DNA from: Petrimonas sp. IBARAKI
GTDB lineage: Bacteria; Bacteroidota; Bacteroidia; Bacteroidales; Dysgonomonadaceae
Length of the DNA stretch: 64,000 nt
Assembly: GCA_002356435.2 (NCBI GenBank)
Contig: AP018040.2
Span: forward strand, 992,001 to 1,056,000
Direction: 5' to 3'
In this document: positions 19,728-36,220 of the stretch, one piece after another
Layout of the letters: each line of letters starts with the position of its first letter
Numbering within the stretch: the first letter of the stretch is position 1
The notes under the pieces: generated by a model
Database searches by the model: none
The model's input: only the letters and a program-made list of their open reading frames with translations
What the model was told of the DNA's origin: nothing
Made by a program: the position numbers and the translations under genes

Positions 19728-20267
19728 ATGTCTGACGAACAACTCATACACGAAATAATATCGGGCAATACTTCTGCCTTTAAAATGCTGGTGGAGAAAT
19801 ACCAATTACGGGTATTTCGCACCGTTTTAGGGTTCGTTCATTCTAAAGAAGATGCCGAGGATATCACCCAGGATATTTTTATGAAAGCGTATCAGTCGCT
19901 CGTGTTCTTTAAAGGTGAATCGGAATTTACTACATGGCTCTACAGGATTACCGCGAATATGAGCATCAATTTCGTCAATCGAAATCGAAAAAACCGGTTC
20001 TTGCAATCCCTCGAAGATATTTTTTACAAGCCAAGCGGTGAAAAAACGCCATTGGAACAACTGGAAGAGTCGGAACGCGACCAGCGTATCCGTAAAGCAA
20101 TCGATTCGTTGCCTGAAAAGCAACGAACGGCTTTTGTCTTAAGTAAATACGAAGAACTGCCTCAGAAAACGATTGCTTCTGTAATGAATATATCGGAAGG
20201 TGCCGTTGAGCAACTTTTGCAACGGGCAAAAAACAATTTGCAAAAAAAATTAAGCACACATCCGTAG
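19728..20267 (+). CDS. ECF-type RNA polymerase sigma factor
   Basis: A 179-residue sigma-70-family factor with region 2 (FVHSKEDAEDITQDIFMKAY, about residues 39-58) and region 4 (LPEKQRTAFVLSKYEELPQK then TIASVMNISEGAVEQLLQRA). Regions 1.1 and 3 are absent. It is followed by a small single-pass membrane protein and a periplasmic sensor-like protein, an arrangement seen for envelope or metal-stress sigma factors. It is divergent from a TetR regulator, which may repress it. Confidence 0.93.
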   Translation: MSDEQLIHEIISGNTSAFKMLVEKYQLRVFRTVLGFVHSKEDAEDITQDIFMKAYQSLVFFKGESEFTTWLYRITANMSINFVNRNRKNRFLQSLEDIFYKPSGEKTPLEQLEESERDQRIRKAIDSLPEKQRTAFVLSKYEELPQKTIASVMNISEGAVEQLLQRAKNNLQKKLSTHP

Positions 20268-20312
20268 GAAATTAAATGTCATCGTGTCTAACTCATTAAA
20301 CAAACAACAAGA

Positions 20313-20606
20313 ATGAAAACGGAACATCAAATAGATGATTTTATCCGACGCGAAAAGCAAACGGAACCTAATCCGTTTTTAAGCAGCCGCGTGATGGCAA
20401 ACATTGAAAAGTTGCAGAAGCCGGAAGTGAAAAAAAATCCGGTTTGGCAAGTTGCTGCCGTTTCTGCGAGCGTAGCCGCTGTTGTTTTTTTAGGAATATC
20501 AATCGGTAACAGTTATGTTGACAGCACATCGCCGGAAACGGTTATGAACATCAACGACAGCCAGATGGAAAATTTAGGATATTACAACCTCGAAAATTAT
20601 GAATAA
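20313..20606 (+). CDS. Small single-pass membrane protein, probable anti-sigma factor
   Basis: A 97-residue protein with a charged N-terminal cytoplasmic part (about residues 1-45, IDDFIRREKQTEPNPFLSSR) and one membrane helix (WQVAAVSASVAAVVFLGISIG, about 46-66). A short periplasmic tail rich in Asn and Ser follows. It has no zinc-binding HxxxCxxC motif. Its place directly after an ECF sigma gene, and its overlap by 8 bases with a periplasmic sensor gene, suggest that it holds the sigma factor at the membrane. The function is inferred from context. Confidence 0.7.
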   Translation: MKTEHQIDDFIRREKQTEPNPFLSSRVMANIEKLQKPEVKKNPVWQVAAVSASVAAVVFLGISIGNSYVDSTSPETVMNINDSQMENLGYYNLENYE

Positions 20607-21165
20607 GACAAACAAAATACTGTGGTTCGTAATAGCATTGCTGGTTATCCTGAATCTGGCAACCATCGGGACCATTTTCTACCATAACAGGCAGAGTAAA
20701 GACGACAACCAGGCAATTGTTCTCGATGAAAACCGGCCAAACCCCTTGACCGGACGTTTTTTCAGGCAGGAACTTGGATTCAATGATGCCCAGATGGAGG
20801 TTTTCAGGGAAGCGAACCGCCATTTTCAATACGTTGCCAATGATTTGATTTTCGAAATGGACTCACTGAAAAGCGAGATGTTTGAGGAGTTAAACGGGAC
20901 TCATCCCGACTCAACAAGATTGCATAATTTGTCGGCTCATTTAGGCAGGCATCATGCCGAACTAAAGAATGTCACCAACGACTTTTACCTGAAAATAAAA
21001 TCAGTATGCGATTCCTCACAATGCGAGCGTTTACAGGGGGCCTTTCTTCCGCTTTTCAGAGACGGGACGGTAGCCAATTTCGGAAGAAGATACAACCGGA
21101 ACGACAGCATTGGTCGCGGGCAGGAATACAGGCACAGATACAGGCGCGGTTGGAGATTGCAATAA
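20599..21165 (+). CDS. Spy/CpxP/CnrX-like periplasmic sensor protein
   Basis: A 188-residue protein anchored by one N-terminal helix (ILWFVIALLVILNLATIGTIFY, about residues 7-28) with a helical periplasmic domain. The family's LTxxQ-type helix pair appears as LGFNDAQMEVFREANRHF, followed by a second helix pair and an Arg-rich tail. The relation is to the CnrX/Spy (heavy-metal resistance) group, which either sense metals or act as chaperones. A regulatory role beside the sigma/anti-sigma pair is likely. I see no clear metal-binding cluster. Confidence 0.72.
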   Translation: MNKTNKILWFVIALLVILNLATIGTIFYHNRQSKDDNQAIVLDENRPNPLTGRFFRQELGFNDAQMEVFREANRHFQYVANDLIFEMDSLKSEMFEELNGTHPDSTRLHNLSAHLGRHHAELKNVTNDFYLKIKSVCDSSQCERLQGAFLPLFRDGTVANFGRRYNRNDSIGRGQEYRHRYRRGWRLQ

Positions 21166-21207
21166 ATAAGATAGAAGCACATAACTAACAATTAAAAATC
21201 AGAAAAG

Positions 21208-21573
21208 ATGAAAGCAAAACTTTTTATTTCAGCTATAGCAGTTGTTTTATCGGTAGGGATGGTAACTGCTCAGAATCAGAATCCGGTCAGAAAAGACACA
21301 ACAACTTCCACTCAAAACGGACCTGCGTTTGTGGATAAAGACAACAACGGTGTTTGCGACAATTTTGAGAACGGGACACCGCGAAATCCGAATGCAAACG
21401 GAAAACAGCGCCTGCTTGACGGAAGCGGCCGGGGGATGGGCTTCCGTAACGGAAAAGGCATGCCGCGGCGAGGCCGGGGACAAGGCTGCTGCATAGGGCT
21501 TCGCAACGGTAAAGGGAGTGCGGTAAATTTCGTGGATGCCAATAAAAACGGCATTTGTGACCGCAGGGAATAA
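21208..21573 (+). CDS. Small secreted protein with two DxDxNGxCD-type loops
   Basis: A 121-residue protein with a signal peptide (MKAKLFISAIAVVLSVGMVTA). The mature part contains FVDKDNNGVCDNF near residue 42 and FVDANKNGICDRRE at the very end. Both resemble the calcium-binding loop of EF-hand or dockerin-type proteins, with a cysteine inside each. Between them is a Gly/Arg-rich stretch with GQGCCIGLRNGKG. It is probably the last gene of the sigma-factor set. The function is unknown; a metal-binding or redox role fits the cysteines. Confidence 0.65.
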   Translation: MKAKLFISAIAVVLSVGMVTAQNQNPVRKDTTTSTQNGPAFVDKDNNGVCDNFENGTPRNPNANGKQRLLDGSGRGMGFRNGKGMPRRGRGQGCCIGLRNGKGSAVNFVDANKNGICDRRE

Positions 21574-21775: not shown

Positions 21776-22021
21776 ATGGATATTAGAAAAAACATTGCTG
21801 TCAGCGAAAACGGATTTATCTTTAATCCTCTTACGGGAGACAGTTTCAGCGTTAATCAGACGGGTGTATTTATTCTCCGTAAAATGAAAGAGGGTGACAG
21901 TAATGAAGATATCATGAAGGCACTCCAGGAGGAATACGAATTAGATACTTACACCGCCGAAAAGGACCTTTACGATTTCTTGTCTTTACTGAAAAGTTAC
22001 CAGCTGACCGAAAATGAGTAA
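21776..22021 (+). CDS. PqqD-like small protein
   Basis: An 81-residue protein of the PqqD fold, with a beta-rich N-terminus (FIFNPLTGDSFSVNQTG) and a helical C-terminus (EDIMKALQEEYELDTYTAEKDLYDFLSLL). PqqD-type domains are known to bind leader peptides for modifying enzymes. Here no precursor peptide is visible in the 200 bases upstream. The gene overlaps the ATP-grasp gene by 8 bases, so the two are surely co-translated and may work as a pair. It heads the six-gene cassette 21776-28510. Confidence 0.72.
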   Translation: MDIRKNIAVSENGFIFNPLTGDSFSVNQTGVFILRKMKEGDSNEDIMKALQEEYELDTYTAEKDLYDFLSLLKSYQLTENE

Positions 22022-23063
22022 AAGAAAAATTACCGTCGGGGTAAGCGGACTCAACAATATAGACAGCCCGGGACCCGGGATTCTTGTCATTCGCGCATTG
22101 AAGGAAAGCAGTGAATTCGATGTGCGAATTATCGGATTCTCGTACGAGACCCTGGAACCGGGAATTTATATGCACGAACTGGTGGACAAAGTGTATCAGT
22201 TGCCGTTACCCACTGCAGGATCTTCAATGCTGAAAGAAAGGCTGCAATATATTGCGGGCATTGAGAAAATAGATGTAATCATTCCCAATTTTGATGCAGA
22301 ACTGCACAACTTCATCAAGATACAACAGCAATTGAAATCGGAGCTGGACATTGCCACGTTTCTGCCTTCTCACGAATCGTTTGAAGAACGACAGAAATCG
22401 GAACTGAACAAATTTGGCGAAAAATACAACGTAAGGGTGCCGAAAAGCCATATGATAAATCAGCTTTCGGAATTGAAAAAGCTCGAAGACGATTTGGATT
22501 ATCCCATGGTTATCAAAGGCAGGTATTACGACGCATACGTTGCTTCTTCTCACGAACAGGCAAGCGCTGGTTTTTACAAGATAGTGTCCAAGTGGGGTTA
22601 CCCGGTGATTGTTCAGGAATTTGTGACCGGAACGGAAGTGAACGTCACCGCCATTGGTGATGGGTATGGCAACTGTATCGGTGCCGTGCCGATGCGGAAG
22701 CTTTACATCACCGACAAAGGAAAAGCGTGGTCGGGCATTTCGCTGGAAGATGATACGCTGATGGAAATTACACGCCGGGTGATTGAAAACAGCAAATGGC
22801 GCGGTGGCTGCGAGCTGGAGTTTATCAAAACCAAGAAAGATGAATATTATTTGCTGGAGATGAATCCGCGTTTTCCAGCCTGGGTTTACCTGGCAAACGG
22901 ATGCGGGCAAAACCACGCCGAAGCATTGGTGAAAATGGCGCTGGGTGAAGAGGTAAAACCATTTGCCGGATATAAAAGCGGGAAAATGTTCATCCGCTAT
23001 TCTTACGATATGATTGTGGATATTACGGAATTTGAAAAAATTTCAACAACGGGGGAAATGTAA
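22014..23063 (+). CDS. ATP-grasp ligase
   Basis: A 349-residue protein of the carbamoyl-phosphate-synthase/PylC-like ATP-grasp type. An N-terminal pre-ATP-grasp domain (ITVGVSGLNNIDSPGPGILV) is followed by the ATP-binding lysine segment YPMVIKGRYYDAYV, the loop VIVQEFVTGTEVNVTAIGDG, and the metal-binding end YYLLEMNPRFPAWVYLA. Such enzymes join a carboxylate to an amine or thiol using ATP. It lies between a PqqD-like gene and a decarboxylase gene 2 bases away. The substrate cannot be stated. Confidence 0.85.
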   Translation: MSKRKITVGVSGLNNIDSPGPGILVIRALKESSEFDVRIIGFSYETLEPGIYMHELVDKVYQLPLPTAGSSMLKERLQYIAGIEKIDVIIPNFDAELHNFIKIQQQLKSELDIATFLPSHESFEERQKSELNKFGEKYNVRVPKSHMINQLSELKKLEDDLDYPMVIKGRYYDAYVASSHEQASAGFYKIVSKWGYPVIVQEFVTGTEVNVTAIGDGYGNCIGAVPMRKLYITDKGKAWSGISLEDDTLMEITRRVIENSKWRGGCELEFIKTKKDEYYLLEMNPRFPAWVYLANGCGQNHAEALVKMALGEEVKPFAGYKSGKMFIRYSYDMIVDITEFEKISTTGEM

Positions 23064-23065
23064 AG

Positions 23066-24421
23066 ATGAAACCTACCTATGAACGCCCTGTCATTCAAAA
23101 ACTGAATACGGGCTTACTCAATAAATTCGGCAGCAGAACCGAGTACACACCCGTAAAACAGATCGATGGTGTTTCCGTAAACAACTTGATGGATCAGTAC
23201 GGTTCACCCTTGTTTGTGATCAGCGAGAAAACCATCCGTCAAACCTATCAACGTGCGTTGAAGGCGTTTAAAATGCGTTACCCGAAAGTGCAGTTTGCCT
23301 GGAGCTATAAAACCAACTATCTCGATGCGGTCTGCAACGTTTTTCATCAGGAAGGAAGCTGGGCGGAAGTGGTATCAGGATTTGAATACCAAAAAGCGCT
23401 ACACAACGGAGTGCCGGGTAACCTTATCATTTTCAACGGCCCTGATAAATCGGTGGAAGATTTGAAAAAGGCTGTCGAAAACCGTTCGCTTATTCATATC
23501 GACCATTTCGATGAACTCTATTCACTTATCGAGATGCTGGAAGGGACCTCCTACAGCGCACGCGTAGCCATTCGTGTAAATATGGACACGGGTGTTTATC
23601 CACAATGGGACAGGTTCGGATTCAATTATGAATCCGGACAGGCATGGAATGCTATCATGAAGATTGTGACACAGAAAAATCTCGAACTGGAAGGCCTGCA
23701 CTGTCACATCGGTACCTATATGCTTACGGCAAACGCATATGCGGTTGCTGCCCGGAAAATGTGTGAGTTGGCACAAGCTACGGCAAACACTGCCGGTATT
23801 AAAGTCAAGTACCTGGACATGGGTGGCGGATTTTGTTCTTCGAACACGCTGAAGGGCTCTTACTTGCAGGGTGTTGATGTAATTCCCAATTTTGACGATT
23901 ATGCCGAGGCTATTGTGAACACCCTTTTGCATTTTGGTTTCAAACCCGATGAATTACCCTTGTTGATCCTCGAAACAGGGCGGGCGTTGATCGACGAGGC
24001 CGGGTACCTGCTGGGGTCAGTCCTGGCTACGAAACGTCTGGCTGACAGTAGGCGGGCAACCGTTCTCGATATCGGTGTAAACATCATGTTTACCTCATTC
24101 TGGTACAATCATCGGGTATCGCCCGCACAGGATTTTACGCAGCATGCCGAAGAAATGGCGCTTTATGGCCCGTTGTGTATGAATATCGATTGCCTTCGTG
24201 AAAGTGTGAGCCTGCCTTTGCTGAAGAAGGGTGACCGTGTGGTGGTTCACGAAGTAGGTGCATACAACATGACACAATGGATGCAGTTTATCACGCTTCG
24301 GCCGAATGTAGTTATGATAGACACCACCGGGAAGGTGCATTTAATCCGGAAAAACGAAACCGTGGAAACTATCGTGGAAAACGAAAACGTACCCGATCAC
24401 CTAAAGGTTTTCAAGTTGTAA
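23066..24421 (+). CDS. Fold-III PLP-dependent decarboxylase (LysA/ornithine decarboxylase-like)
   Basis: A 451-residue enzyme of the alanine-racemase-fold decarboxylases. The PLP lysine is in FAWSYKTNYLDAV (near residue 76), the His in LEGLHCHIGTYM, and the Gly-rich phosphate loop is DMGGGF. The partner active-site residues are in LILETGRALID, GPLCMNIDCL and EVGAYNMTQW. Catalytic residues are intact. It is unlikely to be the housekeeping diaminopimelate decarboxylase, since it lies in the ATP-grasp/PqqD cassette and diverges around the lysine. It probably decarboxylates an amino acid or a ligated product. Confidence 0.83.
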   Translation: MKPTYERPVIQKLNTGLLNKFGSRTEYTPVKQIDGVSVNNLMDQYGSPLFVISEKTIRQTYQRALKAFKMRYPKVQFAWSYKTNYLDAVCNVFHQEGSWAEVVSGFEYQKALHNGVPGNLIIFNGPDKSVEDLKKAVENRSLIHIDHFDELYSLIEMLEGTSYSARVAIRVNMDTGVYPQWDRFGFNYESGQAWNAIMKIVTQKNLELEGLHCHIGTYMLTANAYAVAARKMCELAQATANTAGIKVKYLDMGGGFCSSNTLKGSYLQGVDVIPNFDDYAEAIVNTLLHFGFKPDELPLLILETGRALIDEAGYLLGSVLATKRLADSRRATVLDIGVNIMFTSFWYNHRVSPAQDFTQHAEEMALYGPLCMNIDCLRESVSLPLLKKGDRVVVHEVGAYNMTQWMQFITLRPNVVMIDTTGKVHLIRKNETVETIVENENVPDHLKVFKL

Positions 24422-24441
24422 AGTGTAAAAAGGATTGGTAA

Positions 24442-26613
24442 ATGAAATCGCAGATTCAATCCATCGGTGAGTTGCACTTGAATGGCACGATCAACAGCTA
24501 TGCCCAGATATTCTTTTCTCAGGATAGATGGTACGCCGTCATTTTACTGACGGTCAGTATGCTCGATTACCGGTTGGGATTGGGTGGGCTTACTGCGGTG
24601 GTCTTGACCAACCTGATGGCGCACCTGCTCGGTTTCTCGAAAGAAAAAATCAGAACCGGGCTATATGGTTTCAACGCTGTTTTTATCGGGATCAGTATGG
24701 TATATAAGTTTCACGTGAACCCGGCGCTGTTTGTGCTTTTCTTTTTTTCTGTTATTTTGGGATTTATGCTGACGATCTGGTTTGAAACCCTGTTATCCAA
24801 ATACAAAGTTCCCATCCTCACTCTTCCGTTTGTATTCACGTTGTTTGTAGTTGACCTTTCATTTAAAACATTTACCCATATCCAGCCCATTCTCCCTTTC
24901 GACCGTTTTACAATTGTTCTGGCAGAACAGATGAAAGTTCCCTGGTATAATGCCGTGCACTTTTTCGATAATACCGAAATTCCGCAGATGCTCTATTTTT
25001 ACTTAAAGACGATGGCCTCAATTTTCTTTACCGACAGCATTTTAGTGGGGGTGATTGTTGTAATTGCGTTGCTGTTTCATTCGAGAATTAAATCGACGGT
25101 GGCTTTTCTGGGATTTTTCTTTGCTTTTGTGACAAGCAAAATGATGGGAGTGGATATTCAGCAGCTGACCCAAAACCTGGCCGGGGTGAATTATATTTTC
25201 TGGGGAATGGCTATCGGCAGTTTCTTTATTATCCCCAACGCGTACAGCTACTTGTTGGTTGTAGGGCTTACCCCGGTGCTTTTCCTTTTTTATACAGGTA
25301 TCGAAAACCTTATTTTGAATATGGGGTTGTCTTCATATACCTTGTCGTTCAGTCTTTTGTCGATATTGCTGTTGTTCATTTTAAGGCAGCGAAGCCTGAA
25401 CCGATTTTTTGTTTTCCCCTATATACAATATTATAATCCTGAAAAGACGGTGTACAAGAATGTAAACTACATGCAACGTTTTGGACAGGAAACCTTGTTT
25501 AAGATGCAACTTCCATTTTTAGACAAGTGGACGGTCAGTCAGGGATACGATGGAGCTATCACGCATTTGGGCGACTGGGGAAAAGCGCTTGACTTTGTGA
25601 TTATGGATGAAGAGGGGAGTACTTGCTTCGGCAGGTGTGCGCAGAAAGAAGATTTCTACTGTTACAACAAACCGGTTCTTGCTCCTGCTGACGGTTATGT
25701 CTATACAATCAGCAACATTGCCGGAGACAATGAGATAAACCAGGTTGACACCCGGAAAAATTGGGGCAATACAATTATTATTAATCACCTAAACGGATTA
25801 TATACACAGATAAGTCACCTGAAGAAAGACAGTTTCAAGGTTCGCACCGGCGATTTTGTAACGAAAGGAACCGTCGTCGCCGCATGTGGCAATTCGGGAC
25901 GCTCTCCGGAGCCTCATCTTCATTTTCAAGTGCAGCTGACACCGGAAATCGGTGCGGCAACCCATCCGTATCCAATCGGGTATTTTTTCGAAAAAGCAAA
26001 GGGAAAAAGAGTACTGCGCATCGGTGAGGTTCCGCAGGAAAATTCAACCGCTTGGAATGTAGTGGCATCGGGTCTGTTGCTTGACGCATTTGAGGCTAAA
26101 CCGGGAAAACTGCTACGTGTAAAATACAACGGCGAAGATTTTATGTGGCCGGTAGCTACGGATGCTTATAACAAAACGTATATACATTGCCGGAAAACAA
26201 AATCGATGGCTTACCTGGAGAACGACGGCACAATGTTCTATTTTACCGATTTTGAAGGGAAAAAATCGTCGCCGTTGTATCTTTTTTATCGGAGTTGCTT
26301 TAAACTCCTGCTTTCCTGTGAAAAAGAAATTCCTGTAAAGGACTTCGTTCCCCTGACGAAAGAGCACCCCACCGGAACAAGGTGGATCCAGGACCTGTTG
26401 GCTCCGTTTGTAATTTTTACTCGAATCAAGTACCGGTCGGAATTGATAGAGGTGGACAACATGCATTTTCCCGAAAAAGTTGTTTACCTGACACAAACAA
26501 ATACGGTATCGTTTCATTTTAAAAACCGCCGGAAAGAAACATCGGTGACGGTTTTAAAAAACAGCATTGAAATCCATTTCCAAAACGAAAAATTATGTAT
26601 CGATTGGGCGTAA
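24442..26613 (+). CDS. Urea-transporter domain fused to an M23-type peptidase domain
   Basis: A 723-residue protein. Residues about 25-330 are polytopic and carry the urea-transporter feature IRTGLYGFNAVFIGISMVY, with a second inverted-type half (SKMMGVDIQQLTQNLAGVNY). Residues about 360-520 form a LytM/M23 metallopeptidase domain: THLGDWGKALDF supplies the first metal ligands with a longer spacing than the usual HxxxD, and EPHLHFQVQL supplies the HxH. A C-terminal beta-rich part follows (to 723), without a match I recognise. The topology places the peptidase after the last helix. Its neighbours suggest export or cell-wall work for a small product. Confidence 0.8.
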   Translation: MKSQIQSIGELHLNGTINSYAQIFFSQDRWYAVILLTVSMLDYRLGLGGLTAVVLTNLMAHLLGFSKEKIRTGLYGFNAVFIGISMVYKFHVNPALFVLFFFSVILGFMLTIWFETLLSKYKVPILTLPFVFTLFVVDLSFKTFTHIQPILPFDRFTIVLAEQMKVPWYNAVHFFDNTEIPQMLYFYLKTMASIFFTDSILVGVIVVIALLFHSRIKSTVAFLGFFFAFVTSKMMGVDIQQLTQNLAGVNYIFWGMAIGSFFIIPNAYSYLLVVGLTPVLFLFYTGIENLILNMGLSSYTLSFSLLSILLLFILRQRSLNRFFVFPYIQYYNPEKTVYKNVNYMQRFGQETLFKMQLPFLDKWTVSQGYDGAITHLGDWGKALDFVIMDEEGSTCFGRCAQKEDFYCYNKPVLAPADGYVYTISNIAGDNEINQVDTRKNWGNTIIINHLNGLYTQISHLKKDSFKVRTGDFVTKGTVVAACGNSGRSPEPHLHFQVQLTPEIGAATHPYPIGYFFEKAKGKRVLRIGEVPQENSTAWNVVASGLLLDAFEAKPGKLLRVKYNGEDFMWPVATDAYNKTYIHCRKTKSMAYLENDGTMFYFTDFEGKKSSPLYLFYRSCFKLLLSCEKEIPVKDFVPLTKEHPTGTRWIQDLLAPFVIFTRIKYRSELIEVDNMHFPEKVVYLTQTNTVSFHFKNRRKETSVTVLKNSIEIHFQNEKLCIDWA

Positions 26614-27908
26614 CGTTAATTATAGTCATGGTTGTGGCTTCGGTTCTTGCTCAGGACAGCCTGCGCAGAGAATTAGACAGCCTCACATATCAGCAATACC
26701 TCAACAAGGATTACAAAAACCTGATAGAAACGGGTAAGAAGGCCTGTGAGCAACATATTAATTTTTACTACCTCAATTACCGGACCGCCATTGCCTACTA
26801 CGAACTGAAAAATTATGCGAAGGCAGCAGAATTCTACAGAAAGACGCTCGCCGAAACCCCCGATGACCCGATTTTGCAGGAAAGTCTTTACTACTCCTAT
26901 CTGTTAAGCGGACAGAAAGAAAACGCAGCTATCGTTGCCAGATCGCTTGCGCCGCACACGCAGGTAACCATAGGATACAAGCCTTCGTCCGTAGATTACA
27001 TTTTATTATCGGGCGGATATATGACAAACGACAATACACCGGATATACACTCTGATTTTGCGGGAAACGATTCCGTCAATCAATATAGAGATATGATTTT
27101 CACGAGCTTGGGATTGGGCTTTAATCTTTCTTCCCGTTCCAGATTTAAACTCGGCTACCAAGTGTACAACACGAATTTCGAACAGTATACAGCCGCCGGG
27201 CTTGCTCAGACCGATAAACTCACTCAGCATCAATTGGTTGGGACATTGGAATTCTTTACGGAAAACAATGTTTTGTGGGGAGTTGCAGGGGGGTATTACT
27301 TCATTGAATTGTTTGATAGGACAGCCATTTATACTCTCGGAGGCGGAGGAAAGGGCTTCGGGCCGGGAACCGGGAGAATCTTCACAACTTCAGGCGGAAA
27401 ATCCGTTTCGGCATTTTCTGCACTAGTATTTCTGAACAAACGCTTTGCGTACACTTTACCCGAGATTGCTGCAACCTATTCCAATTTTGGGGGCGGGCAC
27501 CAGTATCAGGTAAAGGGATCGCTTACTTATTATCCGTTAGGTAATCTCAATTTTTACGGAACAACTGCTGCAGCAGTCATCCGCAACCAAGACGCCTGGA
27601 CGGACACTCAACTTATATTCTCTCAGAGCCTCGGAGTAAAGTTAACCAAACAGTTGTGGCTCGACGGAAACATAAGCCTGGGAAATCACCGGAATTACGT
27701 TTCAGAACGCTCTTTTCTGGTGTATGACACGTACGATCCCGTGAAGGCCATTGCCGGGCTTTCTCTTTCCTGCTTTTTCCGAGATGTCATGCTGTCTGCA
27801 GGATACCAGTGGCAACAAAGAGAGGGATATGCTTATTCTGCGATCAACTACTCTGCCTATAAATACAACAATCACCTCCTAAATATTGCATTCACATGGA
27901 ACCTTTAA
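26595..27908 (+). CDS. TPR / outer-membrane beta-barrel protein
   Basis: A 437-residue protein with a signal peptide (MYRLGVTLIIVMVVASVLAQ) and two to three TPR units (about residues 35-125, YYELKNYAKAAEFYRKTLAE). A C-terminal part of alternating aromatic/Gly-rich strands follows, ending AFTWNL, as in outer-membrane barrels. This TPR-plus-barrel plan is that of YaiO/BcsC-type exporter components. It overlaps the transporter-peptidase gene by 19 bases and the following TPR gene by 13. It probably forms the outer-membrane part of the cassette. Confidence 0.72.
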   Translation: MYRLGVTLIIVMVVASVLAQDSLRRELDSLTYQQYLNKDYKNLIETGKKACEQHINFYYLNYRTAIAYYELKNYAKAAEFYRKTLAETPDDPILQESLYYSYLLSGQKENAAIVARSLAPHTQVTIGYKPSSVDYILLSGGYMTNDNTPDIHSDFAGNDSVNQYRDMIFTSLGLGFNLSSRSRFKLGYQVYNTNFEQYTAAGLAQTDKLTQHQLVGTLEFFTENNVLWGVAGGYYFIELFDRTAIYTLGGGGKGFGPGTGRIFTTSGGKSVSAFSALVFLNKRFAYTLPEIAATYSNFGGGHQYQVKGSLTYYPLGNLNFYGTTAAAVIRNQDAWTDTQLIFSQSLGVKLTKQLWLDGNISLGNHRNYVSERSFLVYDTYDPVKAIAGLSLSCFFRDVMLSAGYQWQQREGYAYSAINYSAYKYNNHLLNIAFTWNL

Positions 27909-28510
27909 ATAAAAAAAGCGGATGGTTTATCCTTTTGTTGTTGTTCTCAGCAACAGTTTCAGCACAAGTGAATTCATCTCAGGTTTTTGCAGACAGTTAT
28001 CGATACGAATCGTCGGGCGATTATCAGAAAGCCATAGCGGAATTGAATGTCCTGAACGGATACGATTATCACAAATCGTTGCGCCTCGGCTGGCTGTATT
28101 ACCTGGCTAAGGATTACGAGAGCAGCAAAAAATTTTATAATCAGGCCATCAGTTTAGCACCGCAGGCTGTTGAAGCCTTGTTGGGAATTTGTTATCCGCT
28201 AGAAGCACAAAAGAAAACGGATGAACTGGAAACGGTCTATAAAAAAATCCTGTCGCTGGATAAGACAAACTCAAAAGTGAATTATGCACTGGGAAATATC
28301 TATTATTACCGGAAAGATTTTATACAGGCTGAAAAATATTTTGACCTGGTGCAAACCATGTATCCTTTCGATTACTATTCAACACTGATGAGCGCCTGGA
28401 CAAAATATTTTCTCAACAAAAAAAACGATGCCCAGCGACTCTTCAATATTGTTCTTATCATCTCTCCAACTGACCAGTCAGCAAAAGAGGGGTTGAATCT
28501 TCTAAAATAG
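27896..28510 (+). CDS. Periplasmic TPR protein
   Basis: A 204-residue protein with a signal peptide (WFILLLLFSATVSAQ) and about four TPR units, for example DYESSKKFYNQAISLAPQAV and DFIQAEKYFDLVQTMYPFDY. It is the last gene of the cassette and overlaps the barrel gene by 13 bases, so it probably binds partners of that system in the periplasm. No catalytic motif is seen. Confidence 0.75.
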   Translation: MEPLNKKSGWFILLLLFSATVSAQVNSSQVFADSYRYESSGDYQKAIAELNVLNGYDYHKSLRLGWLYYLAKDYESSKKFYNQAISLAPQAVEALLGICYPLEAQKKTDELETVYKKILSLDKTNSKVNYALGNIYYYRKDFIQAEKYFDLVQTMYPFDYYSTLMSAWTKYFLNKKNDAQRLFNIVLIISPTDQSAKEGLNLLK

Positions 28511-29329: not shown

Positions 29330-29896
29330 ATGGAAAGTATTAATACCCTGACCCTGGAGAAACTCCAGGCGGAACTGGAAAGCCTGGAGGCAAAAGCCGA
29401 CCGGCTAGAAGTTTCCCGTAAAGACCAGTTGTCTATTGCCATCGTATCGGGCGATATGGATAAAATTCTGGCGGCCATGATTATTTCCCTGGCTGCAGCA
29501 GCCATGGACACACAAGTGAAACTTTTCTTCTCCTTTTGGGCGTTGTCCGCATTGCGTGATCCCCGGAAAAAGGTAAGAGGAAAAGATTTTATCTCGAAAA
29601 TGTTTGGAATGATGCTTCCCAATGGACGCAACAAACTGAAGTTGTCGAATATGAACATGTGCGGTATGGGGCCGGTGATGATTAAAAAACTGATGAAGAA
29701 GCAAAACGTGATGTCGCTTGATGCGATGTTTACGGAAGCTGCCGAACTGGGAGTGGAAATCACGGTTTGCGAAATGTCGATGAACCTGATGGGTTTCAAG
29801 AAAGAGGAGATGATCGATTATCCTCATCTTCGTTATGCTGGTGCTACCACATTCGTTGCCGATGCCGGTGAAAGCAGTATGCAATGGTTCATTTAA
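29330..29896 (+). CDS. DsrE2 / DsrE-DsrF-DsrH-like sulfur-relay protein
   Basis: A 188-residue protein. A coiled N-terminus (about 35 residues) precedes the DsrE fold, in which hydrophobic segments ILAAMIISLAAAAMDTQVKL and FFSFWALSAL are typical of DsrE2. Conserved cysteines lie in NMNMCGMGPVMIKKL and ITVCEMSMNLMGF. DsrE2 proteins are known to exchange persulfide sulfur with TusA-type carriers, and a tusA gene lies two genes downstream. It is the first gene of the sulfur/Hdr operon, after a weak -7 element TATCTTTA at 29283-29290. Confidence 0.88.
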   Translation: MESINTLTLEKLQAELESLEAKADRLEVSRKDQLSIAIVSGDMDKILAAMIISLAAAAMDTQVKLFFSFWALSALRDPRKKVRGKDFISKMFGMMLPNGRNKLKLSNMNMCGMGPVMIKKLMKKQNVMSLDAMFTEAAELGVEITVCEMSMNLMGFKKEEMIDYPHLRYAGATTFVADAGESSMQWFI

Positions 29897-29906
29897 ATGT
29901 AGGATA

Positions 29907-30266
29907 ATGAAAAAAATACTCATTATTTACAACCAAAACCCATACGACGGAACAGACGTAACCTGGAATGGGCTGAGATTGGCAGAAACATTGCACAGAA
30001 ATGGTCAATCGGTAAGAATTTTCTTGATGAACGATGCCGTTGATATGGCTCGCGATGAATGTAACCCGCCCGTAACGTACGATCAGGATTTGAGTGCGAT
30101 GTTGAAGGGGTTGATTAAATCGGGTGTCCCGGTTAAAGTATGTGGAACTTGCATGGCAAGATGCGGTGTGTATAAAAACAGACCTTATTTCGAAGGTGCA
30201 GAAAAATCAACTATGCAGGCATTATCGGAATGGGTAATCGATTCTGATCAGGTATTGACTTTCTAA
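29907..30266 (+). CDS. DsrE-family protein
   Basis: A 119-residue cytoplasmic protein of the DsrE/YchN fold (KKILIIYNQNPYDGTDVTWN, then GLRLAETLHRNGQSVRIFLM). A cysteine-rich loop VKVCGTCMARCGVYK (about residues 75-89) holds three Cys and probably carries sulfur. The start at 29907 is 10 bases after the DsrE2 stop; a longer frame from 29835 would overlap DsrE2 without family support. It belongs to the DsrE2-TusA-Hdr operon. Confidence 0.87.
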   Translation: MKKILIIYNQNPYDGTDVTWNGLRLAETLHRNGQSVRIFLMNDAVDMARDECNPPVTYDQDLSAMLKGLIKSGVPVKVCGTCMARCGVYKNRPYFEGAEKSTMQALSEWVIDSDQVLTF

Positions 30267-30306
30267 TAAAAACCATCAAAATATTAATAATTTAAATACT
30301 ACAATT

Positions 30307-30558
30307 ATGACAACAGAAGAATTAAGAACATTAAAATCGAACTTAACGGTAGATGCGCGAGGTACAGCATGTCCCGGTCCACTTTTGGCGGCTAAGAAGG
30401 CTATCGGTGAAATTGAATCGGGTGAAATTATGGAAATCTTGTCGGCAGACGAAGGAACCAAAAACGATATCCCACGCTGGTGCGAGAAGGTAGGACACGA
30501 ATACCTGGGTTTTTACGACGAAGATAGCTTCAGTCGCTTGTTCCTGATTAAAGAGTAA
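30307..30558 (+). CDS. tusA: TusA-family sulfur carrier protein
   Basis: An 83-residue sulfurtransferase-type protein with the signature DARGTACPGPLLAAKKAIGE. The Cys of C-P-x-P is the persulfide-carrying residue of the family. It follows two DsrE genes and precedes Hdr-like genes, so it probably carries sulfur between them rather than serving tRNA thiolation. The mRNA downstream holds a strong hairpin (30569-30603). Confidence 0.9.
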   Translation: MTTEELRTLKSNLTVDARGTACPGPLLAAKKAIGEIESGEIMEILSADEGTKNDIPRWCEKVGHEYLGFYDEDSFSRLFLIKE

Positions 30559-30568
30559 TTTTCGGGAT

Positions 30569-30603
30569 AACACGTAATGCGGTTTCAGACCGCATTGCGT
30601 GTT
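30569..30603. other. Strong hairpin between tusA and the MvhD-like gene
   Basis: AACACGTAATGCGGT (30569-30583) pairs with ACCGCATTGCGTGTT (30589-30603) around TTCAG, fully paired with one G-T. No T-tract follows, so it may set mRNA stability or partial termination, separating a carrier-protein transcript from the Hdr genes. Confidence 0.6.
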
Positions 30604-30639
30604 CAGAAAGTTAAATAAAATATTTGACCGCAAAATTTT

Positions 30640-30659
30640 CTGACGCAATGAAGCGTCAG
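30640..30659. promoter_or_regulatory. Inverted repeat upstream of the MvhD-like gene
   Basis: CTGACGC-AATGAA-GCGTCAG is a perfect 7+7 inverted repeat, 24 bases before the ATG at 30684. It could be an operator or an mRNA stem that affects translation; the sequence does not decide. Confidence 0.4.
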
Positions 30660-30683
30660 TTATATTCTTATCATTATTTATCT

Positions 30684-31085
30684 ATGTCAAACGATAATAA
30701 ATCTCCAAAAATTTTGGTGTTTTCTACCGATAAGATTTCCGATCCGGGAATTGATCAGGCAGGATTGAGAAAAATACACTACTCTCCTTCGGTTTATGTC
30801 ATCAATATGCCTTGTTCCTCTGGAGTAAAACCGCGTTGGATTCTTCATGCCCTTGAAGAAGGATTTGATGGTGTTTTTATTGCTGCTGACGGACACGAAT
30901 GCTCGTACAGTGCGAGCTGTCCTGAACGTACAAACGATATCATTCTGGAGTCTCAAAAATTAATGACCGAAAAAAATATAAATCCGAAACGTATCCGTAT
31001 GGCAGCACTGTGTTCTGTTTGTGCAGAGCCGTTTGCCAACCACATGGAAAATTTCAGTAAAATTTTATCCGGATTGGAAGATTAA
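30684..31085 (+). CDS. MvhD-like hydrogenase iron-sulfur subunit family protein
   Basis: About 133 residues from the ATG at 30684. Five cysteines are placed as in the MvhD/HdrD-linked electron-transfer protein family: INMPCSSGVKPRWILHALEE, then ADGHECSYSASCPERTND and MAALCSVCAEPF. MvhD passes electrons to HdrA through a [2Fe-2S] cluster; in Qmo complexes such a domain is part of QmoB. It lies directly upstream of the HdrA-like gene, so it probably docks on that flavoprotein. The frame could start upstream at 30624 or 30648, but 30684 begins the conserved part. Confidence 0.8.
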   Translation: MSNDNKSPKILVFSTDKISDPGIDQAGLRKIHYSPSVYVINMPCSSGVKPRWILHALEEGFDGVFIAADGHECSYSASCPERTNDIILESQKLMTEKNINPKRIRMAALCSVCAEPFANHMENFSKILSGLED

Positions 31086-31100
31086 ACGGAGAAGAAAATT

Positions 31101-33929
31101 ATGAATAAACAGCAAAACAATAATTACGATACGTTGGTAATCGGAGGCGGAATTGCCGGCCAAGAGGCGGCGTTAAGCCTTGCTGATATGAACCATAAGG
31201 TGCTGCTGGTAGAAAAAGGACTTTCCATTGGAGGGAAAATGATTCAATTGAGTAAGGTGTTCCCTACGCTCGACTGTGCCGCATGTATCACTACCCCCAA
31301 GATGTCGGAAACAGCGCGTCATCCCAATATCACGTTGATGCTGAACAGTGAAATTAACGGAATAATTAAAAATGCCGACGGTGATTTCGAGGTAAACGTA
31401 ACCAATAAACCGCGTTATGTGATTCAGGAAAATTGTACGGGCTGCCAGGAATGCGAAGTAGTGTGTCCCGAAGTTCGGAACGATGAATACAATATGAATC
31501 TCGCAGGAAGAAAGGTTGCCTACATTCCCTTTAGCCTGGCTAATCCGCGTATTGCGACTATCGATCGTCAAGGACATTCTGCTCCTTGTATCAATGAATG
31601 TCCGGGTGGCGTAAAAGCATACGGATATATCACTTTGGCCCGAAATGGGCAGTATGAAGAAGCGATGAAACTTCATCTGGAGGACATACCTTTCCCCGGT
31701 AGTTTAGGGCGAGCCTGCTATCATCCCTGCCAAAACGCCTGTACGCGTGGATTGGTGGAAGAACCAGTAGATATACGGAAGATAAAACGCTATTTTTCCG
31801 ATTGGTACTACGAAAAATATCCGCAAGCGCCTGCTGTGGAAATCAAAGAAAATACCGGAAAGAAAGTGGCTGTAATCGGTTCCGGGCCTGCGGGAATTAC
31901 CGCTGCTTATCATCTTGCGTTGAAAGGACATACGGTGAAGATTTTTGAAGCCGCTCCCGGTGCGGGCGGTATGTTGCGTTTAGCCTTACCGGAATATCGT
32001 GCGCCGAAAGATGTGGTGGATAGAGATTTACAGAATATCACCGTTTTAGGAGTTGAAATTGAAGTAAATAAAAAAATAACCGACCTTAAATCGCTTAAAG
32101 AACAAGGGTTTGACGCCGTTTTTGTTGGAATTGGAACACACAGGGCGATGTCATCGGGAACCGAAGGTTCTGATTTGAAAGGGGTGGTAGATTGTCTTAC
32201 TTTCCTTCGTGAAGCCAATATCGGTAAACGCGAAGACCTGACAGGTAAAAAAGTGATGGTGATAGGTGGTGGAAATACCGCTATCGATGCCGCACGTACG
32301 TCACTTCGTCTTGGTGCTGGAAAAGTGATCGTGGTGTATCGCCGCAGTCGTGAGGAAATGCCTTGTTTCGCTCCCGAAATTGAGGAAGCTGAAGAAGAAG
32401 GTGTGGAAATTATGGTGCTGCGTAATCCGTTGAAGTATATCGGGGAAGACGGGCAACTCACACGGATCCAGTTGACTAAAATGCAGTTGGGCGAAAAAGA
32501 TGCGAGCGGACGCCGTAGCTCCGAACCAATCAATGGTTCTGAATACATTGAAGATGTGGATTATGTAATCGAAGCCATTGGACTTCGTGCCGATACCAAA
32601 GCGTTTGACGGACAGGTAGATTTGAATAAAAACGGAACCATCCGTACCGATGCAAAAACATTGCAAACATCTGTAGATTATATTTTCGCCGGAGGCGATA
32701 CCGTAACCGGCTCTACCACGCTGATTGAGGCTGCAGGGCAAGGAAAGAAAGCCGCTTTTTATATGGATAAATGGCTGCGTGGATTGAATATGTTCGATTT
32801 TGAAGATGGCGATAAACTTCCTGCCATCGATAAGAGAATCGTTTTGGGCAGATTCAAAGGCGAAAAACGGCCACAAGTGAAAAATGCAATGATGCCATTG
32901 GCGGATCGCGCCCGCAGTTGGGAAGAAGTGGAAAAAACATTCACTGAAGAAGAGATGAAAGCGAGCACACAGAGATGCCTGGATTGCAGTAACTGCCGTG
33001 AGTGCCATCAATGCGTGAATATTTGTCCTGCCAACGCCATCGACTTCTCACAAAAATCGAAAATTACGGAAGTTAAAGCAAAATCGGTAGTTGTGACTAC
33101 GGGTTACAAACTGTTTCCGCCATCAGCCAAACCCAATTACGGATATGCAAAATACGCCAACGTGATAGATTCGATGCAAATGGACAGGTTGATCGCACCC
33201 ACACGTCCTTTCAACAATGTCCTTCGCCCGAGCGATGGAAAAGCCCCCGATAATATTGCATACATTCTTTGTACGGGATCCCGGGATTCGGCCATTGAAA
33301 ATGGAGGTTGCGGTTCCGATTGCATCAATAATCCTATTTGTTCACAGATCTGCTGTATGTACTCCATCAAGCAGGCGCAATTACTGATGGGTGCCTTGCC
33401 GATGGCGGATATTACCATTTACTACATGGACATTCGTGCATTCGGTAAGGGATATGAAGAGTTCTATCAGCAGGCTAAAGGAATGGGAACCAATTTTGTG
33501 AAAGGAAAAGTGGCAAAAATCCGTGAAACTGAAGATGGTAAAGGTGACTTGATTGTCCGCTACGAAGATGTGACCAAAGGAGTGGTAAAAGAATCCAAAC
33601 ACGACCTGGTGGTACTTTCCGTAGGTGTTGTGCCGAATAAAGAGGTTTCAACTATGTTTAAAGGAGAGATTCTTGAGTTGGACGATTTCAGTTTTGTAAA
33701 ACAAATAGACGAACTGGTCAGCCCTGCTTTGACAAGCATTGAAGGGGTATTTGTGGCAGGTGCCGCATCAGGGCCGAAAGATATTCCCGATTCCATTCTG
33801 TCGGCCGGCTGTGCCGCATCGGAAGTTGCCGGATACTTGAACAGAAGAGAGGCCCTTTTAGACGATAAAAGAACTCAGTTTAAGGTGATGCAAAAGTCAA
33901 CAATGAGCAAATCTGTTTTACAACATTAA
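31101..33929 (+). CDS. HdrA/QmoA-like flavoprotein with inserted GltD-type domain
   Basis: A 942-residue fusion. The HdrA-type FAD motif is VIGGGIAGQEAALSLADMNH (about residues 13-32), followed by FPTLDCAACITTPKMSE and the 4Fe-4S motif CTGCQECEVVCPEV. From about residue 175 a GltD-like module is inserted: its N-terminal cysteines (CINECPGG, CYHPCQNACTRG), an FAD site VAVIGSGPAGITAAYHLALK and an NAD(P) site VMVIGGGNTAIDAARTSLRL. A further cluster CLDCSNCRECHQCVNICPAN and the HdrA C-terminal part close the protein. It could accept NAD(P)H electrons and pass them to the Hdr/Qmo partners. Confidence 0.9.
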   Translation: MNKQQNNNYDTLVIGGGIAGQEAALSLADMNHKVLLVEKGLSIGGKMIQLSKVFPTLDCAACITTPKMSETARHPNITLMLNSEINGIIKNADGDFEVNVTNKPRYVIQENCTGCQECEVVCPEVRNDEYNMNLAGRKVAYIPFSLANPRIATIDRQGHSAPCINECPGGVKAYGYITLARNGQYEEAMKLHLEDIPFPGSLGRACYHPCQNACTRGLVEEPVDIRKIKRYFSDWYYEKYPQAPAVEIKENTGKKVAVIGSGPAGITAAYHLALKGHTVKIFEAAPGAGGMLRLALPEYRAPKDVVDRDLQNITVLGVEIEVNKKITDLKSLKEQGFDAVFVGIGTHRAMSSGTEGSDLKGVVDCLTFLREANIGKREDLTGKKVMVIGGGNTAIDAARTSLRLGAGKVIVVYRRSREEMPCFAPEIEEAEEEGVEIMVLRNPLKYIGEDGQLTRIQLTKMQLGEKDASGRRSSEPINGSEYIEDVDYVIEAIGLRADTKAFDGQVDLNKNGTIRTDAKTLQTSVDYIFAGGDTVTGSTTLIEAAGQGKKAAFYMDKWLRGLNMFDFEDGDKLPAIDKRIVLGRFKGEKRPQVKNAMMPLADRARSWEEVEKTFTEEEMKASTQRCLDCSNCRECHQCVNICPANAIDFSQKSKITEVKAKSVVVTTGYKLFPPSAKPNYGYAKYANVIDSMQMDRLIAPTRPFNNVLRPSDGKAPDNIAYILCTGSRDSAIENGGCGSDCINNPICSQICCMYSIKQAQLLMGALPMADITIYYMDIRAFGKGYEEFYQQAKGMGTNFVKGKVAKIRETEDGKGDLIVRYEDVTKGVVKESKHDLVVLSVGVVPNKEVSTMFKGEILELDDFSFVKQIDELVSPALTSIEGVFVAGAASGPKDIPDSILSAGCAASEVAGYLNRREALLDDKRTQFKVMQKSTMSKSVLQH

Positions 33930-33941
33930 GGAGGAACGGTT

Positions 33942-36146
33942 ATGAGAAAAAGAATTGGTGTATATATTTGCCATTGCGGCGGAAACATTTCCGATTATGT
34001 AGATGTGGAAGAACTGAGCAAAATGTTCCACAAAGAAGACGGCGTAGTCGTTTCGAAAGATGTGATGTTCGCGTGTGCTGACTCCAACCAGAAAGCGATG
34101 GTGGAAGACATTCAGAAACACAACCTGGATGCGATTGTGGTAGCTTCTTGTTCGCCAAAACTCCACTTACATACGTTTCGTGGCGTGGCAGGACGCGCAG
34201 GATTAAATCCTAACAACTATGTTCAGGTGAATATCCGCGAGCAATGTTCCTGGCCACATAGCGATCGTCCACGCGAGGCAACAGTTAAAGCAGCCGGATT
34301 AATCCGCGCGGGTATCAACCGCGTATCATTCTCCGAAGCGTTGGACAACATAGAAATAGAAGTGAAAAAAGCAGCGATGGTTATAGGTGCCGGAATTTCG
34401 GGTATGAAAGCTGCTATTGATCTGGCACGATCCGGAAATGAAGTTTATCTGGTTGAAAAAGATTATTTTGTTGGAGGACGAATTACGCAGAGAGAGAAAC
34501 TCTTTACTACCGGACAAAGCGGAAAAGAAATTGTGAAAAAACTGTACGATGAAATTAAATTGTACAAAAATATCACCGTTTTCACCGGAGCCACCATTGA
34601 AAAAGTAACCGGAAGTTTGGGCAATTTCAATATTGAGGTGAAAGTGAAACCACGTTATATTAATGGAAAGATTGACAAGCAAACCGTGAACCGGGCAATG
34701 GATGATTTACAGGTGTACGTGGATGACGAATTTAATTTTGGACTGTCAAAACGGAAAGCTATTTACAAAAATTATCCAGACGCATTACCCGATGTTCCCG
34801 TTGTGGATGTGGAAGCGCTCAAAGATCACCCGGATTATCTGGAAAAGTATAAATCGGTTATCAATCTGAACGAAAAGGAAGAAACCATTGCGTTGCTGGT
34901 AGGCTCTGTACTTGTTACTACTGGATTTGACAATTACGAGCCTAAAGAGGGTGAATTCGGTTACAAAAATATCCCGAACGTGATTACACTTCCGCAATTG
35001 AACAGGTTAATGGAATTATCGCCAGAAAAATTGATTTACAACGGGAAAGAAATTCACAATGTGGCGTTTATTTACTGCGTTGGAAGCCGCCAGAAAAAGG
35101 GTGAAAACAAATACTGCTCACGTCATTGCTGCACTTCGACCATTTATACGGCGTTACAATTGAAAGAGAAATACGGAAAAATCCAAAACTTCCACCTGTA
35201 TCGCGACATCCGTACGTACGGTAAACAGGAAATTCTGTACGAACAGGCATCGAAACAAGGCGATTTGTTTTTCAAATACGAAGAAAAAGAATTGCCTACC
35301 GTGGAGATGAATGGAAAAGGTATTTCGCTGAAGGTAAAAGACTACCTCACAGGTAAAAAGGAGTTGGAAATCGCTCCCGATCTGGTGGTGCTTGTAACTG
35401 GAATGGTGGCACGTACGGATGCACCGCATATTTCGGAGTTATTTAAAATTCCAATTGGAAATGACAAGTTTTTCAACGAAATACACCCGAAGCTGAAACC
35501 GGTAGAAACGGTTATCAAAGGGGTGTATATCGGCGGTACATGTCAGGGACCGAAGAATGTGAGTGAAGCGGTGCAGTCTTCGCTGGCGGGAGCTTCCAAA
35601 ATAACGGCATTGCTGAAAAGCGGTACCGTGATGGGCGATCCGGTTGTGGCGCGTGTAAATGCTGATGCTTGTACTTGGTGTGGTAAGTGCGCCGAAGTGT
35701 GCGATTACACGGCAATTAGGGAAACCGTTAATGAAGCCGGCAAACATATCGCAGGTGTAAACAAGGGCGTTTGTGCGGGTTGTGGAATTTGTGCGCCGGT
35801 TTGTCCCGTGAATGCTATAGAAATAGCAAAATATACCGACAACGAAATAGAAGCGATGATTGACGGTTTTGCAGCCAAAGTGGAAATCAAGGAAAAAGAA
35901 GCATCCGGTATTACCGAAGAAAAAGCAGACGTTGTTGCAGCTCACATGAAAGAGTATCCGCAAATCTGGAAAGATATTCTAGCTACCATCGAATCGGATA
36001 AAAAAACTATTCCCGAAGTGGTAGACATGCTGAAAATTGCTCCCGAAATGGTTACTTATCATTTAATGACAATGAACAAATACGGTGTGGTAGCACCTGC
36101 AGGGACAAATGAAAAAGAAGAATATTATTATTACAAAATGAAATAG
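33942..36146 (+). CDS. Second HdrA/QmoB-like iron-sulfur flavoprotein
   Basis: A 734-residue protein. The N-terminal HdrA segment IGVYICHCGGNISDYVDVEE and the FAD motif AAMVIGAGISGMKAAIDLAR (about residue 145) are followed by the Cys region YCSRHCCTSTIYTAL. Two 4Fe-4S ferredoxin motifs follow: CTWCGKCAEVCDYTAI and CAGCGICAPVCPVNAI (about residues 570-625). The last 80 or so residues (KEYPQIWKDILATIESDKKT, MLKIAPEMVTYHLMTMNKYG) look like a winged helix, an unusual tail. It lies 12 bases after the first HdrA-like gene and before the QmoC-like gene. Confidence 0.88.
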   Translation: MRKRIGVYICHCGGNISDYVDVEELSKMFHKEDGVVVSKDVMFACADSNQKAMVEDIQKHNLDAIVVASCSPKLHLHTFRGVAGRAGLNPNNYVQVNIREQCSWPHSDRPREATVKAAGLIRAGINRVSFSEALDNIEIEVKKAAMVIGAGISGMKAAIDLARSGNEVYLVEKDYFVGGRITQREKLFTTGQSGKEIVKKLYDEIKLYKNITVFTGATIEKVTGSLGNFNIEVKVKPRYINGKIDKQTVNRAMDDLQVYVDDEFNFGLSKRKAIYKNYPDALPDVPVVDVEALKDHPDYLEKYKSVINLNEKEETIALLVGSVLVTTGFDNYEPKEGEFGYKNIPNVITLPQLNRLMELSPEKLIYNGKEIHNVAFIYCVGSRQKKGENKYCSRHCCTSTIYTALQLKEKYGKIQNFHLYRDIRTYGKQEILYEQASKQGDLFFKYEEKELPTVEMNGKGISLKVKDYLTGKKELEIAPDLVVLVTGMVARTDAPHISELFKIPIGNDKFFNEIHPKLKPVETVIKGVYIGGTCQGPKNVSEAVQSSLAGASKITALLKSGTVMGDPVVARVNADACTWCGKCAEVCDYTAIRETVNEAGKHIAGVNKGVCAGCGICAPVCPVNAIEIAKYTDNEIEAMIDGFAAKVEIKEKEASGITEEKADVVAAHMKEYPQIWKDILATIESDKKTIPEVVDMLKIAPEMVTYHLMTMNKYGVVAPAGTNEKEEYYYYKMK

Positions 36147-36220
36147 TCAAATAGCGCAGGAATTAAAGCTTCGAGATTTAAGTCTTTGTCTCTTTTTCCT
36201 GGCTCTAATAATCTTAAGAT

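Follow-up and report, generated by a model that had tools for sequence, protein, structure and literature searches.

What might be made by a tight run of six genes in which a small peptide-recognition protein, a ligase and a decarboxylase are encoded together with a channel fused to a peptidase and two secreted repeat proteins? This question is raised by positions 21776-28510 (+ strand) of the 64,000-nucleotide stretch of Petrimonas sp. IBARAKI analysed here, referred to below as the window. The host genome is a single contig of 3.69 Mb, 99.99% complete. Judging from its sequence, the small protein of this cassette is a lasso-type peptide-recognition element (RRE), and its ligand is probably the N-terminal tail of the decarboxylase rather than a precursor peptide. 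The proposal put forward is that an RRE-held pair of ATP-grasp ligase and decarboxylase makes a small conjugated amine, which would be handled by a channel of the urea transporter (UT) family and by outer-membrane proteins with tetratricopeptide repeats (TPRs). The proposal as a whole is given an even chance of being correct.

The original prediction had described the six genes, their spacings and their behaviour as a single unit, and this is borne out both by the coordinates of the open reading frames (ORFs) and by the order kept in relatives. Successive genes overlap by 8 bases, are separated by gaps of 2 and 20 bases, and overlap again by 19 and 13 bases. The predicted protein families agree with Pfam and NCBIfam (PqqD, E 1.6e-12; alanine racemase (AR)-fold decarboxylase dependent on pyridoxal phosphate (PLP), 4.7e-34; urea transporter PF03253, 2.6e-46; M23, 4.8e-17), which also assign ATP-grasp to gene 2 and TPRs to genes 5 and 6. 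The exception is the barrel of gene 5, which is matched by no Pfam model. The features are listed with strand and evidence.

21776..22021, + strand: PqqD-family protein, assigned as a lasso-type RRE, 81 aa (PF05402; lasso_PqqD_Strm; TbiB1 match)
22014..23063, + strand: ATP-grasp ligase, 349 aa (Pfam/NCBIfam, AlphaFold2, Foldseek)
23066..24421, + strand: AR-fold PLP decarboxylase, FigC/FslC-like and not a diaminopimelate (DAP) decarboxylase, 451 aa (closest PDB entry 7kh2; T343, M372)
23078..23095, + strand: YERPVI, lasso-leader-like putative RRE-binding motif, residues 5-10 of the decarboxylase tail (conservation in 114 sequences)
24442..26613, + strand: urea-channel-like membrane protein of the UT family fused to an M23 metallopeptidase domain (UT-M23), 723 aa (Pfam, Foldseek)
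24487..25380, + strand: UT channel domain, residues 16-313 (PF03253, E 2.6e-46; 3k3f profile match)
25492..25971, + strand: M23 domain, about residues 351-510, predicted cytoplasmic (alignment; UT topology)
26595..27908, + strand: secreted TPR protein, 437 aa, for which an outer-membrane barrel is predicted (TPR_2; signal peptide read from sequence)
27896..28510, + strand: secreted TPR protein, 204 aa (TPR_2, E 6.8e-14; signal peptide read from sequence)

The prediction had also allowed that the six genes might not be kept together in relatives. Instead, the order is conserved across Bacteroidota, and the six-gene unit appears conserved, in the same order, in hundreds of Bacteroidota genomes. 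The UT-M23 protein, or its split or truncated form, occurs in 34 of 396 Bacteroidota genomes, and the order in those neighbourhoods is PqqD-like, ATP-grasp, decarboxylase, UT-M23, (TPR-barrel), TPR. Chance grouping is excluded, because the same neighbours stand in the same order wherever the flanks are long enough. A scan of the decarboxylase alignment against 84,980 species genomes gave at least 581 relatives, of which 80, with 64-84% identity, were kept. Named cultures among the kept relatives include Pedobacter paludis, P. nototheniae and Mucilaginibacter myungsuensis. A few records carry names from other phyla and are apparently mis-binned metagenome-assembled genomes. Where the upstream sequence is long enough (92 loci), the PqqD-like and ATP-grasp genes are present in 91 (87 directly, 4 more by tblastn); in the one locus without both (L109), the contig is truncated and the neighbour resembles DnaA. 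Downstream of the decarboxylase, UT-M23 is found in all 94 loci with enough downstream sequence and the TPR gene in 87 of them. The junctions are tight across loci, with medians of -4 nucleotides for PqqD/ATP-grasp (64 of 97 overlapping) and -13 for both UT-M23/barrel and barrel/TPR. Within the window's order, the decarboxylase occurs in 120 of 295 genomes, nearly always as a single copy; four further genomes of the family to which the window belongs are without it. No description of the cassette was found in openly licensed literature, in keeping with the original prediction, which had not recognised the system as described. PADLOC gave no match for the cassette, and its interpretation as a defence system was dropped for this reason.

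Recognition protein and decarboxylase tail

The best model for the PqqD-like protein is NCBIfam lasso_PqqD_Strm, which matches all 22 members scanned. When its profile is compared with the PDB, the best match is the lasso RRE TbiB1 (E 1.5e-13), followed by TfuB1 (2e-9), with PqqD proper reaching only about 0.02. In LppB, the leader peptide is contacted by N33 at the proline kink, by D70 through a hydrogen bond to Tyr and by F74 at the proline, and M78 and L83 are contacts of a second pocket (PMC13381572). These five residues align with N27, D64, F68, L72 and L77 of the cassette protein. The alignment uses the numbering of chain 9x8z minus 18, and the chain is judged to be LppB from the fact that one offset fits all five contacts. 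Across 101 cassettes, N27 is kept in 101, position 64 is Asp in 96, position 68 is Phe in 91, position 72 is Leu in 96 and position 77 is Leu or Ile in 99. The suggestion that the PqqD-like protein itself is the carrier is not borne out: its C-terminus is variable, it has no invariant Ser, and it belongs with the lasso-type RREs instead. An acyl or amino carrier protein of the BtrI or LysW type is rejected, as there is no phosphopantetheine Ser and no conserved C-terminal Glu. A second PqqD-like protein is encoded in the genome (L152, G000:C1:2353005-2353220, - strand). Its neighbours are an NTP_transf_5 nucleotidyltransferase and a protein that, read by eye, is HPr-kinase-like, an arrangement resembling the named but unexplained HPr-rel-A system.

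The cassette decarboxylases start with about 30 residues that are missing from the genome's LysA, with the pattern KxxYERPVIxKxxxGxxNKFG. Since nearly all full-length matches in the window's order start at residues 1-4, this N-terminal tail belongs to the decarboxylase family. In 114 sequences, position 5 is Tyr in 108 and Phe in 5, Glu is kept in 112, position 8 is Pro in 113 and position 10 is Ile, Leu or Val in 113. The lasso leader motif is [Y/W]xxPx[L/V/I/F/A] (PMC13381572). It occurs within the first 25 residues of 103 of the 114 decarboxylases, compared with 9 of 848 neighbouring genes; among the other cassette genes, the counts are 0 of 103 for ATP-grasp, 2 of 113 for UT-M23 and 0 of 105 for TPR. 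Consequently, the earlier statement that no precursor or leader is visible requires correction, as a leader-like motif sits on the decarboxylase N-terminus. A precursor peptide near the cassette was sought among the small ORFs of the neighbourhoods, and nothing conserved was obtained: the motif is carried by 2 of 260 small intergenic ORFs in the fetched neighbourhoods, and these are mutually unrelated. The lasso leader peptidase B2 (PF13471) likewise has no match in the window's genome.

From this motif and the contact residues, docking of the decarboxylase tail in the RRE is strongly inferred. In 118 paired loci, a Tyr tail is accompanied by D64 of the RRE in 102 and by Asn in one, and a Phe tail is accompanied by Tyr, Phe or His at position 64 in 15 and never by Asp, a pattern that a hold of D64 on the Tyr hydroxyl would predict. 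This covariation is consistent with contact and is not proof of it; it is weaker than the raw counts suggest, because on the decarboxylase tree it amounts to only one or two evolutionary events.

Enzymes, channel and envelope proteins

The closest PDB entry to the cassette decarboxylase is 7kh2, the N-citrylornithine decarboxylase FigC/FslC (E 6.7e-57). Residues specific to DAP decarboxylase (DAPDC) are lost, the specificity-helix Arg being replaced by T343 and the Glu beside the catalytic Cys by M372; why an acidic residue in the latter position matters is explained in a study of the T. maritima DAPDC (PMC8277567). The genome's own LysA retains IRPALY and CES and has no YERPxI motif. Against the lysA model, the cassette enzyme scores 225 bits, under the 297.9-bit cut-off, and a genuine LysA elsewhere in the genome (position 754461-755564) scores 402 bits, over it. 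In view of this separate LysA and of the T343 and M372 substitutions, the possibility, considered in the original prediction, that the cassette enzyme is the genome's only DAPDC is rejected. Residues T343, Y347, M372 and R306 correspond to T327, Y331, M355 and R290 of FigC. The FigC residues that set specificity and contact citrate (H357, R387) are named in PMC7857480, whose authors consider that clade-2 enzymes that are neither DAPDC nor D-ODC most likely serve specialised metabolism. The characterised members of this non-DAPDC, non-D-ODC group have conjugates or carrier-bound amino acids as their substrates. Placement of the cassette decarboxylase in the clade is based on its best matches, not on a tree with named enzymes.

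The ATP-grasp enzyme was modelled with AlphaFold2 at a predicted local distance difference test score of 93.8. The best Foldseek match is 2pn1, and further matches include the RizA/3vot amino-acid ligases, PylC, PurK, biotin carboxylase and carbamoyl phosphate synthetase (CPSase). Residues K168, E269, E282, N284 and R286 are invariant. The initial idea that ligase and decarboxylase yield a small amide or amine stays the best reading.

The UT domain of the fusion protein matches dvUT (3k3f) by profile over residues 9-328, including the PEEN tail after helix 10 (E 2.9e-54), and the Foldseek search with the UT-M23 model returns dvUT 3k3f with a TM(target) of 0.83 together with LytM domains. In urea transporters, the loop linking the two halves, T5a to Pb, is periplasmic (PMC4357013). 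Because five helices come after this loop, the C-terminus is expected to be cytoplasmic. The charge pattern agrees: most Lys and Arg residues fall in predicted inner-side loops, and the segment leading into M23 has 5.3 of them on average. The M23 domain, placed behind a canonical UT fold whose C-tail is predicted to be cytoplasmic, probably lies on the cytoplasmic side of the membrane, and the label of wall peptidase, which is not borne out by this topology, appears doubtful. The M23 active site (H...D...H...HxH) is formed by H375, D384, H459, H492 and H494, which are invariant in 29 members. The UT-M23 gene lies in two frames in two genomes (L063:7944-10198 and L112:9209-11401), through a frameshift or a genuine fission. 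The two halves of the L063 protein occupy separate frames, perhaps owing to a frameshift, and the one with M23 is without a signal peptide. Beyond M23, residues 512-723 (window about 25975-26610) make up a C-terminal domain that is rich in beta structure and matches no family.

For gene 5, the barrel is predicted from length, signal peptide and position only, and a YaiO-type barrel is not supported by Pfam. A secreted protein of 277 residues is encoded downstream of the TPR gene in 12-14 loci. In some lineages, the cassette is flanked by LytTR regulators, by LytS-type kinases or by GNAT acetyltransferases, none of which adjoins it in the window; the GNAT-adjoining loci seem to be largely one clade. 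Just upstream of the cassette, window 19728-21573 (+) encodes an extracytoplasmic function (ECF) sigma factor, a short anti-sigma-like protein, a CpxP/Spy-like protein of 188 aa and a Gly/Arg-rich secreted protein of 121 aa, the last three named by eye; this set is not a recurrent neighbour of the cassette. Downstream, window 29330-37273 (+) encodes DsrE2, DsrE, TusA, a FlpD-like protein, two HdrA-like flavoproteins and a QmoC/HdrC-like membrane subunit, a set that reads as a redox cluster of the sulfur-relay/Qmo type, here in a member of the Bacteroidota.

Proposed pathway and competing explanations

In the proposed pathway, the RRE would, very probably, grip the YERPxI tail of the decarboxylase in the cytoplasm as lasso RREs grip a leader peptide. 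It would also hold ligase and decarboxylase together, with the ATP-grasp enzyme as the third partner, a role that is probable given the translational coupling of the RRE and ATP-grasp genes. The ATP-grasp enzyme would couple a partner to an amino acid or a similar carboxylate, and the conjugate would then lose CO2 in the FigC-like decarboxylase to give an amide- or carrier-linked amine; both steps are suggested by active-site residues and gene content. This order of conjugation and decarboxylation would be the logic of FigA/FigC (citryl-ornithine to citryl-putrescine) and of BtrJ/BtrK. The product, or a substrate, would then pass the inner membrane through the UT-family channel in its predicted topology. 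The M23 domain on the cytoplasmic face may trim or hydrolyse the product, a role that is guessed, and passage of the outer membrane through the TPR-barrel/TPR pair would be likewise a guess.

Besides the few evolutionary events behind the covariation, several points weigh against this pathway. The citrate-binding H357 and R387 of FigC are replaced by I374 and Q404, so the conjugate is probably not citryl, and the substrate is unreadable from homology. The similarity of the ATP-grasp enzyme is spread across carboxylases and ligases. A cytoplasmic location would be unusual for an intact M23 fold, and the evidence for this topology consists of homology and charge bias. Finally, K20 is present in 113 of 113 alignable tails, N19 and F21 are also kept and G22 is nearly invariant; the invariant K20 and near-invariant G22 lie outside the RRE motif, which suggests that the tail does more than dock.

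Of the other explanations, the one that fares best, while still improbable, is linked to peptidoglycan. The decarboxylase would act on the free D-centre of meso-DAP in murein peptides, the M23 domain would cut D-Ala-DAP or a similar bond, and UT and TPR-barrel would move the fragments. Such a role suits an M23 domain with all catalytic residues, a closest enzyme family that includes DAP decarboxylases, and the LytTR/LytS-type regulators beside the cassette in some lineages. However, the DAP-recognition residues are lost, UT channels carry urea-sized molecules, and the M23 domain is predicted to be cytoplasmic.

Comparably improbable is the use of the tail as substrate or carrier, in which the RRE presents the tail, the ATP-grasp enzyme acylates Lys20 or another tail residue, the tethered group is decarboxylated, and M23 or another step releases it. 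The conservation around Lys20 goes beyond docking needs, RREs normally present a peptide for modification, and BtrK works on carrier-bound glutamate. Nevertheless, K20 may be kept for a structural contact, a conserved cleavage site is not evident, and no enzyme bearing both a leader and a core of its own is known to us. A fuller version of the same idea, a long shot, has Lys20 acylated, the amino acid decarboxylated on the enzyme, and the product freed into the channel by the channel-fused cytoplasmic M23 hydrolase. If true, such a self-carrying decarboxylase would be a ribosomally encoded assembly line outside the carrier-protein class and the class of ribosomally synthesised and post-translationally modified peptides (RiPPs).

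There is also little to recommend a true RiPP system with its precursor gene at another site of the genome, the decarboxylase tail then being a coincidence or a competitor for the RRE. RREs are otherwise known from RiPP clusters, and ATP-grasp enzymes make graspetides (PMC8939145). Against this stand the lack of a conserved motif-bearing small ORF in the fetched neighbourhoods, a tail motif far above background, a genome with no PF13471 match, and an ATP-grasp enzyme that is CPSase/PurK/PylC-like and not near the graspetide ligases.

Very unlikely, lastly, is nitrogen supply, in which the UT domain would import urea or a small amide for consumption by the cassette enzymes: the UT fold is fully kept and the equivalent of Q24 in the dvUT pore pair is Gln in most members, but E187 has become Ala or Ser in the family profile, so that urea may not be the substrate, the cassette has no urease, and the stand-alone UTs of relatives (L069, L070) have other neighbours and no M23 domain. 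Ordinary urea uptake for urease was judged unlikely in view of the absent urease genes, the M23 fusion and the altered pore residue.

Comparison with known systems

The preferred reading, an RRE that holds a ligase and a decarboxylase together, bears on the use of RREs as a class-independent marker in RiPP discovery. The authors of RRE-Finder reported many lasso-type RREs without lasso machinery, which were called only possible false positives (PMC7470986). The cassette would give a concrete class of such orphan lasso-type RREs, with a likely ligand in the N-terminal tail of an enzyme. If the docking is true, the role of RREs widens from peptide processing to enzyme scaffolding, and the genome mining of orphan RREs changes. 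For about 40% of the genomes sampled in one bacterial order, the cassette moreover indicates a metabolite pathway not described so far; it also indicates a channel whose peptidase would face the side of the membrane where it is not expected.

The membrane protein resembles urea transporters (dvUT, UT-A/UT-B) in keeping the ten-helix fold, including the PEEN tail after helix 10. It differs from them in the fused M23 and C-terminal beta-rich domains and in the loss of the second-half pore Glu/Gln. With LytM/M23 endopeptidases it shares the fold and all five active-site residues, whereas its M23 domain has no signal peptide of its own and is joined to a channel at what is predicted to be the cytoplasmic end.

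With the discrete lasso RREs (TbiB1, TfuB1/FusB1, PbaB1 and the related LppB), the cassette shares the RRE family, the contact residues and the YxxPx[L/I/V] ligand motif. In contrast to lasso systems, it has no precursor peptide, leader peptidase or cyclase, and the motif is found on an enzyme N-terminus. FigC/FslC with the ligase FigA provides the closest structure, the same loss of the side-chain readers of DAPDC and ornithine decarboxylase, and the ligase-then-decarboxylase logic; the open specificity helix of FigC (Thr/Tyr) and the Met next to Cys are present in the cassette enzyme as T343, Y347 and M372. However, the cassette ligase is an ATP-grasp enzyme and not an NIS synthetase, H357 and R387 are absent, and a leader-like tail is added. 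The butirosin proteins BtrI/BtrJ/BtrK likewise combine an AR-fold decarboxylase and a small protein with an ATP-grasp ligase, BtrJ, but BtrI is an acyl carrier protein, whereas the small cassette protein is an RRE without carrier features. The cassette does not qualify as a lasso/RiPP cluster (no precursor gene nearby, no PF13471), and its decarboxylase qualifies neither as a DAPDC nor as a citrylornithine decarboxylase. By analogy, the cassette is one that would work like the RRE-guided systems and the FigA/FigC or BtrJ/BtrK systems taken together, without being one of them.

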